From positions 1 through 64,000 of the forward strand of contig DUSN01000045.1 of the NCBI GenBank assembly GCA_012842605.1: DNA of 64,000 nucleotides, given 5' to 3'. A model generated the notes under the pieces. It made no database searches. It was not told where the DNA came from and saw nothing but the letters and a program-made list of their open reading frames with translations. Both the position numbers and the translations under genes were made by a program. This document shows positions 31,392-64,000 of the stretch, in pieces (positions within the stretch are counted from its first letter, which is position 1; every line of letters begins with the position of its first letter). The stretch comes from Clostridiales bacterium. Its GTDB lineage: Bacteria > Bacillota > Clostridia > Caldicoprobacterales > DTU083.

Positions 31392-32249
31392 TTAATTAAA
31401 AAATGTCAAAACCAGTGCCACTACACCCAATAAAAAACCTATCACAGCAATCGTATATAATCCTTTTATTTTTCGGGTAATGGCAGCAAGTGATAATGAA
31501 TATTCATTTTTTACCTCAATCAGTTCTTTGGTATTTTCATCTTCTTTCTTTGCAATAGATTCATGAAACTCATTATGCTGTCTATCAGTCTCCACCAATG
31601 CTTTCAATTCCTCAGTAAATCGCTTAACTGATTCATCTATTCTTTGAAGTTTTTCTTCATAATGCTTGTCAACCTCAATAAACTCCTCTAACTGCTTGTT
31701 TAGTCTGACATTTTCATCATGTACGCATTTTATTTTTTTACTAAGTTTATCCAGTTTGATAAGAATATCTTCCTGAGCTTTAAGCTCCCTTATAACATTC
31801 AAGATTTCTTTCTTTGCAAGCTCCGAGAGTTCTTCAGCAGATGCATTACTCAGTCGTAACTCCAATTCCCTTACAATGCTTCTATTGAGCGCGAGGTTGC
31901 TGATTCCTAAGCCGAATAAATATTTCGTTATTTCCGTAAGCCTTGTTAGGAATTTAAACGAAATCTCATGTGCTTTTGCTTGAGCAGAAAGAGCTTGAGC
32001 AGAGTCACAACTAAATGATTGAAGCGCTTGAATAGCCTCCGCTTTCTGAAACCAGCCAGTTGGTTTGCTTTTAGCATAATCGGCTGTTTCCAGAGCTTTA
32101 TCAGCCAGGTCAATAGCATTCTTGACTTCATTATCGTAGTTGATCAACTCTTGAAATGCACCAGAAACAATATTAGGTAGTTCGCTTTCATCTACATCGA
32201 ATTGCTTTGGAAGTTCATCTATATTTAGAACTGTCATTTCTTGTTCCAT
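31392..32249 (-). CDS. Coiled-coil tail-anchored protein of unknown function
   Basis: 285 residues; not recognised as a named family. The N-terminal half is mostly helical; residues about 165-250 are a charged coiled coil (repeated E/K/L heptads), and the last 24 residues (GLYTIAVIGFLLGVVALVLTFF) form a single C-terminal membrane anchor, placing the body in the cytoplasm. ATG 32249 follows GGGGG by nine bases and lies five bases after the upstream gene's stop, so the two genes are co-translated and probably interact. Confidence 0.75.
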   Translation of the reverse strand: MEQEMTVLNIDELPKQFDVDESELPNIVSGAFQELINYDNEVKNAIDLADKALETADYAKSKPTGWFQKAEAIQALQSFSCDSAQALSAQAKAHEISFKFLTRLTEITKYLFGLGISNLALNRSIVRELELRLSNASAEELSELAKKEILNVIRELKAQEDILIKLDKLSKKIKCVHDENVRLNKQLEEFIEVDKHYEEKLQRIDESVKRFTEELKALVETDRQHNEFHESIAKKEDENTKELIEVKNEYSLSLAAITRKIKGLYTIAVIGFLLGVVALVLTFFN

Positions 32250-32254
32250 TATAA

Positions 32255-33805
32255 TTACCCCCATAAGATAATGTCATCAATTTCCTTAATTAGATCCGGT
32301 TTTTTTTCTTTCAAATCATCAATATGATTGCCAACTTCTTTAATTCTATCATCAATGTCAACCAGAACACTGGTGTACGCAGCTGCAGCATATTTCAACG
32401 CTTTCATTGCTTCATTAATCGTTTGCTCTGCCGCTTCTGCCGCAAGCCATACATTTGCTTGCATATAGAAAACTCTTGCATTCATAAGGTGTAGCTGCTC
32501 ACTGAAAATGCTAATGCGCTCATTAATGTGCCCGCTGCGTTTGATGCCCATTGCAACATCAGTACCCACTGCAACAGCAAAACGACCAACACCAACAAAA
32601 TTTACCCGCAGTATAAACTCCGTAGCAAACAGGGCGGCGTTACCACCTGATTTAACTGCACCTCGTATTGTTGCATCAATTACATCAACTGCAGTCATGG
32701 TTGCTGTTGCTATTGTCAGCATCCTGATAATTGTACGGTTCTTCCATGGTTTAACTTTTTCAAAATCAATTTTGTTCAACTCAGATAAATGTCGTATATT
32801 TTTTTCTTTTATCTCATTAGCTAACCTTCGAATGAAGTAAAACCCACGAACAATGCATTCGTTGACTATAACAGGAATTGCCTGCCTTCCAATTTCATGC
32901 GCTACACCAATCTCAGCACGTAAATCAAACCTTAGTTCTTCGGTTATCTTTCCTCTTTCATCACGCTTAGCAAGTAACGTTCCGTTAAAGAGCTTTGAAA
33001 TCCATACAGAAAAGTCGTTTATACCATCCTTATTATTAAAAATGGGTAGTGCTGATAGTTCTTTAAGGAAAGATACCAGTGGACCAGGCAGGCCTGTGCC
33101 AGCACCAGGGGTTGAGCTTGACCCTGCCATATCACTAATCATGTGCAGGAACCAATAGACAACACCAAATAATATTTTCTTAGGGAAGTCTTTGCCAATA
33201 AGTGATTTATCTTTAATGGCAACAACAATAAACTTACCTGTAGTGTCTGTTCCGAATGATTTTCCTGTGAATTGAGTTAGCAGTGAGAATATTAATCCTA
33301 CAAGGGTTGGATGATGAGCAAAATCACGGAGATGATGCTGCAGACTGCCTCCAAAGAGTGGTGTTTCGCCATCGCTTGGCATACCAAATTTCTCAAGAAA
33401 TCTAATAGCCCCTTCTACGGAATCTGTATCCTTTTTGGGTTTATAGCCCATTTTTTTTGCAAAATCTTCAACAAAATCATTTACTTTCTTAGTTCCCCAG
33501 TCTCTGCCTCTTTCTAAGTTGAATTCGCCGACCAAAAACGCATCGACTAACCCTGCAAGCAACCCGCTTCCAACGGCGATTATATTATCAATACCGTCAG
33601 CATGGTTTGTTAACTGGTCGATTTCGTTGTTAAGTTCATCTATTCTTTCTTTATTGTACCGGATTCTATCATTAACAGAATTCAAACCATTAGCTATTAA
33701 TCGCTTCCGCGGATCAGATAGGTCATTCTCATCATACATGGGAAAAACCTCATACTGAACCTCAATATCCTCAGTTATAACTTTATAATCAAGCAATGAT
33801 TTCAT
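32255..33805 (-). CDS. Membrane-associated protein of unknown function with His/Asp motifs
   Basis: 516 residues; I do not recognise a named family. Hydrophobic segments lie near 72-92, 165-180, 208-225 and 355-375. Conserved-looking polar residues cluster in QHHLRDFAHHPT (His157, 158, 164, 165) and WFLHMISDMAGSS (His221, Asp225), followed by a Gly/Pro run. This resembles the H...H-x3-D layout of YdjM/DUF457-type membrane metal hydrolases, but only distantly. Charged helices flank both ends. GAAGGA precedes the ATG; forms a two-gene unit with 31392-32249. Confidence 0.75.
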   Translation of the reverse strand: MKSLLDYKVITEDIEVQYEVFPMYDENDLSDPRKRLIANGLNSVNDRIRYNKERIDELNNEIDQLTNHADGIDNIIAVGSGLLAGLVDAFLVGEFNLERGRDWGTKKVNDFVEDFAKKMGYKPKKDTDSVEGAIRFLEKFGMPSDGETPLFGGSLQHHLRDFAHHPTLVGLIFSLLTQFTGKSFGTDTTGKFIVVAIKDKSLIGKDFPKKILFGVVYWFLHMISDMAGSSSTPGAGTGLPGPLVSFLKELSALPIFNNKDGINDFSVWISKLFNGTLLAKRDERGKITEELRFDLRAEIGVAHEIGRQAIPVIVNECIVRGFYFIRRLANEIKEKNIRHLSELNKIDFEKVKPWKNRTIIRMLTIATATMTAVDVIDATIRGAVKSGGNAALFATEFILRVNFVGVGRFAVAVGTDVAMGIKRSGHINERISIFSEQLHLMNARVFYMQANVWLAAEAAEQTINEAMKALKYAAAAYTSVLVDIDDRIKEVGNHIDDLKEKKPDLIKEIDDIILWG

Positions 33806-33943: not shown

Positions 33944-34560
33944 TTATACTTTTTGGCAGACAGGGCATATGTACGAAGTTGTACTGCCCGTTTTTAGTGA
34001 AACTATTGTCTCACCGCAGACAGGGCAGGACTGTTATAAAGGAGTTCAATTTCATCTCCCTCCATGTCCGATATTTTCTTCTGGGGGTGCAGGCGGGCCT
34101 TGAATAAAATGTCGTGCATATACATATTACCGATGCCGCCAATATTCTTTTGGTTCATTAAGAAAGCTTTGATCTGTGTCTTTTTACCTTTCAGGAGCGA
34201 TGAAAAATAATCCAGCGTAAATCTTTCATCAAAGGGGTCAATAGCTATAGCTTTTGTATTTGGCTCTGACGCTAATTCGTCATCAGAAACGAGCAGAAAT
34301 TTACCGAACCACAAAAAGCGGGCTGTATAACCACTTCCATCATTAAAGGTAACCTTTACCTGGTATTTGTCAGCTTGGTCCTCCTCATTTTCGAAATACA
34401 TAACATCAGCATCCATACCAAGAGACAGAAGAACGTTTTCACCGTTATCGAGCGAAGTTATTATCCATTTCCCTCTATTCTTGACATCCTTAATACTTGC
34501 GTCCTTAACTCGTTTTTGAAACTCATAAAATGAGACGTTGGCGCATTTTTCCTGCAGCAA
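33944..34560 (-). pseudogene. Decayed formamidopyrimidine-DNA glycosylase (Fpg/Nei family)
   Basis: The open frame 34560-34003 matches the middle of Fpg: GKWIITSLDNGENVLLSLGM and QKNIGGIGNMYMHDILFKARLHP. The N-terminus with the catalytic Pro-Glu is missing; there is no in-frame initiator and only a degraded TIQSI-like stretch upstream. The C-terminal zinc finger is present but in another frame (CPVC...YICPVC, 34023-33944), and roughly 35 residues before it are deleted. Therefore inactive as a glycosylase. Confidence 0.8.
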
Positions 34561-36726: not shown

Positions 36727-37090
36727 TCAATTTGTCAACATTTTTAGTAATATTTTTTTGGAATTCATTAATACACCAAGATAAGCTGCATTTTGTTTAC
36801 CGGCTGTTGTACCATAAAACTTGAATGAAATCAGACTTGCCATGGAAGCAATGATTGTTCCAAGGCCGCCTAAGTTAGTTCCAACAATCAGTGTTGAGAT
36901 ATTATCAGCAAAGCCGGAAAGAAGGATAGCCGCAGGAACATTGCTGATAACCTGGCTGGCAAGCACAGATGCAAGCAATTCATGTCCATTTATAATACTT
37001 TGGAGCCAGGTGTTGATTCCCGGAATACGCTTCATATTGCCGATGAATACAAATAAGAATATGAAAGTAAGCAGCAAAGAATAGTCTTAC
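36727..37090 (-). pseudogene. 3' remnant of an ArsB/citrate-type ion permease
   Basis: About 120 C-terminal residues of a CitMHS/ArsB-like (SLC13/IT superfamily) permease: DYSLLLTFIFLFVFIGNM, SNVPAAILLSGF and GTNLGGLGTIIASMASL. The first 300 or so residues are absent; the frame is cut about 20 bases from the ROK gene stop and no start with a ribosome site exists. Confidence 0.75.
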
Positions 37091-57234: not shown

Positions 57235-58263
57235 TTATTCGTAATGACATATAACAGTGTTCTCCTCTTTTGTCACTGACGATACCCGGTCTAACTTTAT
57301 TGCTGTTTCCTGCTGGGTTTTTACATTGAAACCATGAGGACCGTTTTTATAACAGCGTTCACGTTTATCATTAGGCAAGCTATCGATGAAATCAAGATGC
57401 CTTTTAATGCGTGAATCGATAACAGCATTTAAAACATCAGCCGGTACGGCAATGTTTTGCAGGGCAAGATCAGCTATATCCGGGTCAATTTCTACTCCTA
57501 TACTATTTCTTTTGGCAGCCATACATGCAAGATTTGTTGTACCAAGCCCGGCAAATGGGTCCAGAACGGTATCGCCTTCAATGGAATACATATTAACCAG
57601 CCTGTACGGGATTTCAAACGGAAAGGCTGCGCTGCGGTCCCTGCTGGTTTTTGGGGCAGAAATCACCTGTGAAGTTCCTTTAATTTCCCATAAATCTGAA
57701 AACCATACATTTCTCTCTTCCCAGAAAAACGCACTCTTTTGCCTGAGTTCCCTTTCAGTGCCTTTGAACAGCCTCTTGCCGCCTTTTCTAAAAATCAAAA
57801 TGTATTCATGCTCATATGTAACATAAGCGCCTGCCGGATACATTCCGGAACCCATAAACTTGTTGGGAGCATTGGACTGCTTGCGCCAAAGAATATCAGG
57901 AAGCACGGAATATCCTTTTCCAAGAAAATAGCTGATAACCTGTGTATGATTGGAATACAGCTGGAAATCGCCATTTATTGTCCTTGTTGCATCACCTATA
58001 TTTATACAAACAAAACCATTGTCCACAAGCACACGATCGCATTCATCCCAGGTACGGTTCAAAAGCTCATGCATCCTGTAAAAAGCCTTTATTCCTTCAC
58101 CGTCCTCCAAAAACATCTTAATTTCCGGATCCTGCCTGCTGAATATTTCATCCCACATGGCAATCATTGGATAAGGCGGTGATGTGATAATTAAATGAAC
58201 AGACTTGTTAGGGATTTGCTTTATATTTTTACTATCACCTATTATTATCTGATGCTTTGTCAT
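57235..58263 (-). CDS. Type II DNA methyltransferase (N4-cytosine/N6-adenine type)
   Basis: 342 residues. Catalytic motif IV is TSPPYPM (about 28-34), first in order, and the AdoMet motif I DPFAGLGTTNLAC lies later (about 236), the beta-class order. SPPY fits N4-cytosine or N6-adenine methylation; partner MjaI-like nuclease suggests CTAG with N4-methylcytosine. Starts 18 bases after the deoC stop, so it is co-transcribed with deoC and faces the nuclease gene end to end. Confidence 0.9.
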   Translation of the reverse strand: MTKHQIIIGDSKNIKQIPNKSVHLIITSPPYPMIAMWDEIFSRQDPEIKMFLEDGEGIKAFYRMHELLNRTWDECDRVLVDNGFVCINIGDATRTINGDFQLYSNHTQVISYFLGKGYSVLPDILWRKQSNAPNKFMGSGMYPAGAYVTYEHEYILIFRKGGKRLFKGTERELRQKSAFFWEERNVWFSDLWEIKGTSQVISAPKTSRDRSAAFPFEIPYRLVNMYSIEGDTVLDPFAGLGTTNLACMAAKRNSIGVEIDPDIADLALQNIAVPADVLNAVIDSRIKRHLDFIDSLPNDKRERCYKNGPHGFNVKTQQETAIKLDRVSSVTKEENTVICHYE

Positions 58264-61624: not shown

Positions 61625-62863
61625 TTATATAAGAAAAGCCTCCTGTTCAAGTTTCATACCTTTCTCAAGCATGAACTCAATAACATCTTTCAATTCGTTA
61701 AGCTGCTCATCTGTTAGTAGCATTCTCAATTTATCCGCATACTTTAAATCAAACTTCACTCCATATTTTATCCTGCTCTCAAACGCTTTTTTATCCATTT
61801 GGTAAGGCTTTAAAGTTGGAATTATGTTTTTCTTAAGTCTTTTGAAAATCATAAATCCACCAAGATCCAAGTCTCCCCAATGATAAAATTCTACTCCATA
61901 TGGGAGTGCCGCTTCGTATAACTTTTTGAAAAATAATCCCTTTGCCGGACTGTAAAATCCTCCATGAAATACAATCATCAATGTTTCATCCTTATTCTCC
62001 GACAGATAATGAATATAATTTGCCTTGTTTTCAATAAAGAGAATTTGTCGAACATTGCCCATATCTTCAACGACTAATTCCTTTATTGTATCGGCATTTA
62101 AAGAAATCCCATGAATGAACGCTCTAAAATCTATTTTCTTTCTATTAACAGTACCAAGTATTCCACCTTTAAACTCAATCAGTTCAGGTGATTGAATAAT
62201 GCCAACCTGCAATAGTGCATCATCATCTGATATTTCCTCCAGTAAATCCTGGTCCAGGCAATACTTTTTAATAATACCCACTAATCTATTTCTAACCTTC
62301 TTTTCAAAATACTTTGAGTCATTAAAGCAATGTAAACTAAAAACCCTTTCAAGACACTGGATTCCATCTAATTCTCTAAGGAAATCCAATGCCTTTAAAA
62401 TAGCCAATGCCTGCTCATAATCTGCAGGAAGAAAGCCAGATGTAGATGCCTTTTCCTTAATTGATTGCTCTGTATCTGTCAGGAACTCAACTATCCAATT
62501 ATCTTTTGCTTTATCCTTAAGCTCAATAACTCTACCTAATAAATCATCCAGAATAACCTTCTTTGCCTTTCTTCCTATTTCAATATAACAATCTTCCACC
62601 CTTGAGACATTAAGCCAGACTTTTTCAATAATATTCCCAGTTTCATGCTTTACCCAATCAAAACCGACCAGACCTTTCTCAGCCAATTCTAATATGACAC
62701 TGTTAAATGTCTCCCTAACCAGTGGCTCTTCAATATCGTATTCCGGAAAGTCACCTCTTGTCATTTTCAACATGATCCTTCTTTTACTATTACCATTAAT
62801 AAAAGTTTTACTTCTTTCATACCGGTCTAGAAGCCTGTCAAGTACAATCCTCTTATAATACAT
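61625..62863 (-). CDS. jetD: Wadjet anti-plasmid system protein JetD
   Basis: 412 residues: N-terminal arm domain (DUF3322-like) and C-terminal Toprim-like DUF2220 domain with the Glu in FIENKANYIHYL, HGGFYSPAKG and DLD in HWGDLDLGGFMIF. JetD is the nuclease subunit that cleaves circular plasmid DNA after loop extrusion by JetABC. ATG 62863 is chosen for GGAGGAGG; its first 11 bases overlap the end of jetC, so the two are translationally coupled. The last gene of the defence operon. Confidence 0.9.
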   Translation of the reverse strand: MYYKRIVLDRLLDRYERSKTFINGNSKRRIMLKMTRGDFPEYDIEEPLVRETFNSVILELAEKGLVGFDWVKHETGNIIEKVWLNVSRVEDCYIEIGRKAKKVILDDLLGRVIELKDKAKDNWIVEFLTDTEQSIKEKASTSGFLPADYEQALAILKALDFLRELDGIQCLERVFSLHCFNDSKYFEKKVRNRLVGIIKKYCLDQDLLEEISDDDALLQVGIIQSPELIEFKGGILGTVNRKKIDFRAFIHGISLNADTIKELVVEDMGNVRQILFIENKANYIHYLSENKDETLMIVFHGGFYSPAKGLFFKKLYEAALPYGVEFYHWGDLDLGGFMIFKRLKKNIIPTLKPYQMDKKAFESRIKYGVKFDLKYADKLRMLLTDEQLNELKDVIEFMLEKGMKLEQEAFLI

Positions 62864-64000
62864 ATAAATCCTCCTCCATGAGCTTCTTGGAATCAAATGC
62901 CCTTACAAATGAACTGGTCTTTTCCCTATATACACAAATGTTTCTGTCGACTAAAGGTGCAATATCACTGATCTTTTCCGGAGGTGCTGAAAGAATACAT
63001 TGAAACCCAAACTTTCGAAGGAGCCGTATACTTTCCTGTATTCTTTCGCTGTCCATTTTGCTAAAAGCTTCATCAAACACGATAAGGCGTATTCGGTTGT
63101 ATGCCTGGTCATGTATTCTGTACAGCTGAGCAAAGGATGCAAGCACAGAAATATAGAAAGGAGTCTGCGTCTCTCCTCCCGATTTTTTCTGTAAGGTCTT
63201 AGAAAGTCTCTGTGTTCTGTCTTCTTCATCGGTAACAACAAGGTCAAAGCTCAGATAAGTTCTGTAATCAGTAAACCTCTTAATATTTTTTTCAAGCTCA
63301 GCTCTTGCATCCGCATTGAGCTCAGCATCAATATCGATAATCTGCCTGAATAACTCGTCAATAGCGTCACGATGCTTATCCCTGAACACTTGGGAAGCAA
63401 TGTTATGTCCTTCCATAAGCATTTCGTCGGTAATCATATCATAATATTTTTTATATTCAAGCCTGGGAGAAGATACAAACCTATACCGCTCCTTACCCCA
63501 GCTGCTTTCCTTCAATGCACTGTTTAACTCATCTATCTGTGATTTTACAGTATCAATGTTTGATTTTAGCTTTGCCAGAAAATCGTCTTCAAACTGCTGG
63601 AAAGCTTTCTCCCTAGCATCCCGGATTTGCTTCCTATATTCGGGTAATCGAATAACCTTAAGTTCTTCCAGTTCCTTTCTGTAAGGAGCATTGTCTTCCT
63701 GTTTGATGTCATGAGCCATTTTATACTTTCTATTGTATTCCGATCTTGCTAACTCCAGCTCATCCTTCTTTTTTGCAGTCTGGTTCTTTGTCCTTTCAAT
63801 CTGAGAACTGAAATTATTTATAATTTCTTTTGCTGATTTTCTGTTTTGCAGTTCTTTTAAGAACCTTGGCTCACCTTTATCAGAAATCCATGAAGCTTCA
63901 TATCTTGATTCAATAATATATCTTGATTTCTTTTCCTCTTCTTCTGAAGCTGGCAGCTTTTCATTTATAATTAACTGCTTATCTTTCTGTGCTATAATAA
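62853..64000 (-). CDS. jetC: Wadjet SMC-like ATPase JetC (C-terminal part, runs off window)
   Basis: About 380 C-terminal residues; the frame stays open to the right edge, so the start seen at 63719 is internal. First comes charged coiled coil, then an ATPase head with signature KKSGGETQTPFYISVLASFAQLY and Walker B IRLIVFDEAFSKMD, D-loop MD, as in MukB/JetC. JetC drives DNA loop extrusion with JetA and JetB, whose genes should lie beyond the window. Confidence 0.9.
   Translation of the reverse strand, partial: IIAQKDKQLIINEKLPASEEEEKKSRYIIESRYEASWISDKGEPRFLKELQNRKSAKEIINNFSSQIERTKNQTAKKKDELELARSEYNRKYKMAHDIKQEDNAPYRKELEELKVIRLPEYRKQIRDAREKAFQQFEDDFLAKLKSNIDTVKSQIDELNSALKESSWGKERYRFVSSPRLEYKKYYDMITDEMLMEGHNIASQVFRDKHRDAIDELFRQIIDIDAELNADARAELEKNIKRFTDYRTYLSFDLVVTDEEDRTQRLSKTLQKKSGGETQTPFYISVLASFAQLYRIHDQAYNRIRLIVFDEAFSKMDSERIQESIRLLRKFGFQCILSAPPEKISDIAPLVDRNICVYREKTSSFVRAFDSKKLMEEDLYVL

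Follow-up and report, generated by a model that had tools for sequence, protein, structure and literature searches.

Two adjacent minus-strand genes in the window (the whole 64,000-nucleotide stretch of DNA analysed here) probably form an anti-phage module that resembles Bunzi but has had its partner replaced. The module would join a BnzB-like core, carrying a His/Asp site, to a membrane-tethering partner, and would act on the membrane or envelope when triggered by infection. Defence is the best reading because the larger protein, judged by profile matching, is a homologue of BnzB. It matched the PADLOC model for BnzB, a component of the anti-phage system Bunzi (E=9.6e-52), and its clade aligned in HHalign with both BnzB-type proteins (probability 100%, 1e-48) and PDC-M09B-type proteins (probability 100%, 3e-61). 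Pfam, NCBIfam, and PHROGs returned nothing convincing for this protein. The original prediction had recognized no named family for either gene product, which must be revised for the large protein and still stands for the partner. Of the roles it had offered, abortive defence gained from the BnzB homology, and we found no support for a role in envelope stress.

The features of the gene pair are listed in Table 1.

Table 1. Positions in the window of the two genes, their junction, and the conserved residues of the core protein.
Feature	Position	Strand	Details
BnzB-like core gene, 516 aa	32255..33805	minus	ORF list and translation
Partner gene, 285 aa	31392..32249	minus	No PADLOC, Pfam, NCBIfam, or PHROG family explains the product
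Core/partner junction	32247..32265	minus	Core gene end TGG GGG TAA, five-base gap, partner ATG at 32249
HHLRDFAHHPT codons, residues 157-167	33305..33337	minus	H157 and H164 near-universal; H158 and H165 variable in other architectures
WFLHMISDMAGSS codons, residues 218-230	33116..33154	minus	H221, S224, and D225 near-universal
D145 codon, further near-universal acidic residue	33371..33373	minus	Conservation table

The gene pair is real, and more than a chance arrangement of reading frames, because full-length homologues of both genes occur in several phyla. Its coordinates confirmed the described layout of two genes separated by five bases. The core gene finishes with the codons TTA TGG GGG TAA, followed by TTATA and then the partner ATG, such that a GGGGG Shine-Dalgarno-like run is embedded in its final codons just 5' of the partner start. 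The TGGGGGTAA..ATG junction was found again in several homologues, with the same arrangement in L072, L073 from Aquibacillus koreensis, L074, and L076 from Bacillus sp. EB01, and in some homologues a 10-bp overlap replaces the gap. Translational coupling of the two genes is well supported because the run lies in the last codons and the junction recurs among homologues. If an in-frame ATG further upstream, at 32264, is the start, the partner has 290 residues. The claim that the pair has its own promoter was not confirmed: a promoter scan gave 10 promoter-like sites versus 10.6 expected in shuffled sequence, with a 9/12 site with an extended -10 at 33874-33845. Base composition did not clearly differ between the pair and its flanks, and therefore gives no signal of recent acquisition.

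The partner was predicted to be a coiled coil with a C-terminal membrane anchor, and our analyses agree. Its AlphaFold2 model is all-helical (helices 21-61, 69-135, and 138-284), and its one strong hydrophobic segment is C-terminal (residues 266-284, mean hydropathy 2.67). A conserved helical N-domain of ~150 residues (about 18-165) precedes the coiled coil and anchor. Among homologues, the coiled coil ranges from very short to more than 200 residues, with tandem repeats, and a hydrophobic anchor ends most complete copies. No convincing match to a named family was obtained from PADLOC, Pfam, NCBIfam, or PHROGs. The partner matched neither BnzA (no PADLOC match, HHalign probability 0.2%) nor PDC-M09A (no PADLOC match, HHalign 6% on 24 columns), and HHalign detected no distant homology to the C-terminus of the fused proteins described below.

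A profile of the N-domain identified 16 loci including the window, in Bacillota, Spirochaetota, Pseudomonadota, Bacteroidota, and Verrucomicrobiota. At all 16 the partner lies directly downstream of a BnzB-like gene, with a gap of -17 to +30 bp, which bears out the expectation that the two genes belong together. When the partner profiles were run against 391 class and 389 phylum genomes, the N-domain occurred only beside BnzB-like genes (G000, G244, and G408), and all other matches covered only the coiled-coil part. Frameshifts break both genes in the G408 copy. No partner homologues were found in viral contigs and phage records. By these comparisons, the partner is a separate protein, non-homologous to BnzA and PDC-M09A, that travels with the BnzB-like core.

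The core protein comprises a conserved region at about residues 60-415 and a C-terminal coiled coil at about 415-516. Its AlphaFold2 model is confident (pLDDT 87.2, pTM 0.71). The original prediction had proposed profile and predicted-structure searches; profile comparison led to BnzB and PDC-M09B, and structure search led to no PDB fold. Specifically, neither protein model had a significant fold match in the PDB, nor did the core model in the viral BFVD, and a PDB profile search matched only coiled coils. Entries for PspA/Vipp1, V-ATPase, and tape-measure proteins in the fold search were rejected as generic helical matches. Where several hydrophobic stretches had been described in the large protein, we observed one strong segment (residues 75-93, mean hydropathy 2.06), with the others at 1.5 or below.

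We aligned 62 homologues spanning all architectures and found that D145, H157, H164, H221, S224, and D225 were each kept in 60 or 61 of them. The main exception is L068, a divergent protein, and position 224 is Gly in one two-gene protein. Conservation of the His/Asp residues was thus correctly anticipated for H157, H164, H221, and D225, and was not universal for H158 and H165: in other groups, H158 is replaced by Arg, and H165 by Asp, Asn, Ser, or Glu. D145 is near-universal even though it was absent from the original list of residues. This degree of conservation is far above chance and supports a functional site formed by D145-H157-H164-H221-S224-D225, which probably binds metal.

To place the pair among its relatives, we searched with the PADLOC BnzB model and then with an alignment query. 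Relatives of BnzB were present in 20/391 sampled class genomes and 10/399 phylum genomes, on plasmids of lactic acid bacteria and Vibrio, and in one phage record. Single-sequence scans of genomes and viral contigs found nothing; the alignment query matched genomes, yielding 80 loci with flanks, and nothing in viral contigs. A phage-borne relative is a PDC-M09-like pair near one genome end of the human gut phage NatCom_3357 (L043, 3294-5847).

The partner slot is occupied in different ways across these relatives. Canonical pairs on Vibrio and Lactococcus plasmids have BnzA upstream of BnzB (BnzA 4e-177 and 5e-128, BnzB 4e-152). Others have PDC-M09A downstream, a model match that was tested on L048. 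At ~60 of the 80 loci, the slot is taken by a fused C-terminus of ~380 residues whose Gly-rich hydrophobic segment bears a weak resemblance to M09A (HHalign 98%). Elsewhere there are M09A-like proteins, either upstream or after a small gene, or a short protein that has two TM segments and faintly matches BnzA. Membrane segments are found in the partner-slot proteins of nearly all architectures. Some M09A-like proteins resemble the PADLOC family LeoBC, a dynamin-like membrane protein, and a membrane-inserting role is therefore plausible for them. The single-gene fusions of ~800 residues (most of L082-L150) attach a Gly-rich membrane C-terminus to a BnzB-like core. They are common in gut Clostridia, with further examples from Actinomycetota, a Melainabacteria MAG, and one archaeal MAG, and are covered by no named system.

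In a quick tree with several weak branches, the window type and the fusions formed one clade (support 100), followed by M09B (98), with canonical Bunzi outside. The nearest kin of the window protein were from Bacillaceae, Spirochaetota, and one Pseudomonadota MAG. In the same tree, the M09A-partnered L080 and L145 grouped beside two-gene loci (support 93), which makes at least one exchange of partners during evolution likely.

Tabulating gene neighbourhoods, as originally proposed, confirmed the constant pairing at 16 loci, and some loci are in defence regions. In a Bacteroidales assembly (L143, 1524-14827), the two-gene module lies within a type I R-M operon, with the specificity subunit gene on one side and the restriction subunit gene on the other; a Wadjet III JetC gene precedes L073 by ~4 kb, and L114 directly follows an IetA-like AAA ATPase gene. 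These are single cases, and ordinary genes surround most of the two-gene loci sampled. The immediate neighbours of the window pair are likewise ordinary, and the closest genes of another defence type lie 23 kb from it (an orphan methyltransferase) and 28 kb from it (a Wadjet I operon).

Several features elsewhere in the window were recorded in passing. The Wadjet type I operon (61625-63719, continuing on contig C48 to ~68.3 kb, L188) includes JetD (2e-115), a JetC of 1133 aa in the full contig, and two further genes where JetB and JetA are expected. A TSPPY-motif protein at 57235-58263 is probably the one behind the type II DNA methyltransferase match, and no restriction enzyme was recognized alongside. 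A formamidopyrimidine-DNA glycosylase gene (34003-34560; region 33950-34560) stops in the H2TH domain, and its zinc-finger residues (CPVCGETIV..YICPVCQK) continue in another frame, which implies a frameshift or assembly error between them. A 116-aa ORF at 36727-37077 looks like a membrane transporter reduced to its C-terminal part, and the gene is probably truncated.

From the BnzB homology and the neighbourhoods of L143, L073, and L114, we infer a role in phage defence and, more tentatively, the following mechanism. The BnzB-like protein would be the sensing or enzymatic core, with D145-H157-H164-H221-D225 forming its active site, probably with metal. The tail anchor would fix the partner in the inner membrane, the coiled coil may oligomerise it, and its conserved N-domain would hold the BnzB-like protein there. 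Infection would then activate the complex such that the membrane or envelope is damaged or blocked and phage spread is stopped, probably at the cell's cost. Membrane damage as the outcome is suggested only by the partners' hydrophobic segments. Where the architecture is a related one, the place of the partner would be taken by a membrane-inserting Gly-rich segment, either fused or separate (PDC-M09A/BnzA-like).

Three other explanations were weighed against a Bunzi-like defence module. The long coiled coils in the partner and in the BnzB-like C-terminus, together with a fold search that found no known catalytic fold, could point to a non-enzymatic pair. It would still be defensive, but the His/Asp residues would be a structural site, for example zinc-stabilised, in a membrane-tethered sensor or scaffold triggered by conformational change alone. 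We consider this rather unlikely, as S224, D225, and D145 accompany the conserved histidines in every architecture, which looks more like an active site than a structural zinc. A toxin-antitoxin pair or mobile-element maintenance module with no tie to phage defence would agree with the coupled two-gene layout, the horizontal spread, and the relatives carried by mobilisable plasmids and by one phage genome. Yet it is highly improbable given the homology to a named defence system, partners that are long and structural, unlike antitoxins, and ~60 relatives that consist of one fused protein and lack a second gene.

The third possibility starts from the leading idea of the original prediction, a His/Asp layout that recalls the YdjM/DUF457 membrane metal hydrolases. 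The pair would be such a hydrolase with a scaffold, here serving envelope or lipid housekeeping instead of defence. The core has conserved potential metal ligands, and it resembles YdjM/DUF457 proteins (PF04307) in membrane association and in a similar motif order of Asp, then H(H)..H, then H-x3-D some 50-57 residues later. However, there is no detectable sequence homology between them, as the core had no Pfam PF04307 match and an HHalign probability of only 0.2-0.4% against 11 YdjM proteins from related genomes. Length and surrounding helices also differ, and the spacing of the motif fits only 3/11 of those YdjM proteins. A loose D/H..H/H-x3-D motif was present in 103/105 BnzB-like ORFs versus 38/1193 unrelated ORFs, and because ~3% of unrelated ORFs carry it, the resemblance is a lead only. 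A patchy spread across phyla, with any BnzB relative in 20/391 class genomes, is also ill-suited to housekeeping, and we judge this explanation quite improbable. One literature lead on DUF457 (PMC12642688) was set aside because it concerns DUF4579, another domain.

With the defence module as the preferred reading, a broader proposal is possible, if short of probable. BnzB may be a membrane-associated defence enzyme that depends on metal and has a new fold, acting as the shared core to which exchangeable membrane modules are fitted: BnzA, PDC-M09A, the fused Gly-rich segment, the short protein with two TM segments, and the tail-anchored coiled coil. The coiled coil would then represent an undescribed family of defence proteins that controls the place or timing of core activity. 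We found no mechanism for Bunzi in the open literature searched. The variant and its relatives separate a constant part (the BnzB core with D145-H157-H164-H221-S224-D225) from an exchangeable part (the membrane partner), turning an uncharacterised defence system into defined residues and domain swaps open to direct testing.

Bunzi consists of BnzA and BnzB (PMC11206119) and is credited to Millman et al. 2022 (PMC10952713). One published table lists TerB (PF05099) for Bunzi (PMC10952713), and this domain had no match in either window protein or in the genome. PF05099 was also without a match in BnzA of L040 (3823-5511) and L042 (2838-4487) or in BnzB of L041. The window pair is like Bunzi in its core, which is homologous to BnzB over ~310-360 residues with the same D/H/H/H/S/D set, and in being a two-gene operon with a membrane segment in the partner. 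It differs in that its partner is a non-homologous tail-anchored coiled coil located downstream at 16/16 loci, whereas BnzA is upstream in the Vibrio and Lactococcus pairs, and in that its core ends in a coiled coil. No BnzA was found in the window's own genome (84% complete), in which a control search likewise matched nothing; M09A was not found there either. The PADLOC phage-defence candidate PDC-M09 (M09A and M09B) shares a downstream, nearly overlapping partner gene, and in the tree the window clade has the M09B-type core as its closest outgroup. In contrast, the PDC-M09 partner has a Gly-rich membrane hairpin (M09A model 7e-73) that the window partner does not match, and the PDC-M09B models themselves do not match the window core. 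The unnamed ~800-aa fusions of gut Clostridia and relatives are a sister lineage with a core ~40-50% identical to that of the window, but in them the place of the separate partner is taken by ~380 C-terminal residues that include a Gly-rich segment with a weak match to M09A. The PADLOC models for Bunzi and PDC-M09 miss two widespread forms, one with two genes and one with a single fused gene. On account of its partner, the window pair belongs to neither Bunzi nor PDC-M09, but it very likely works like both.
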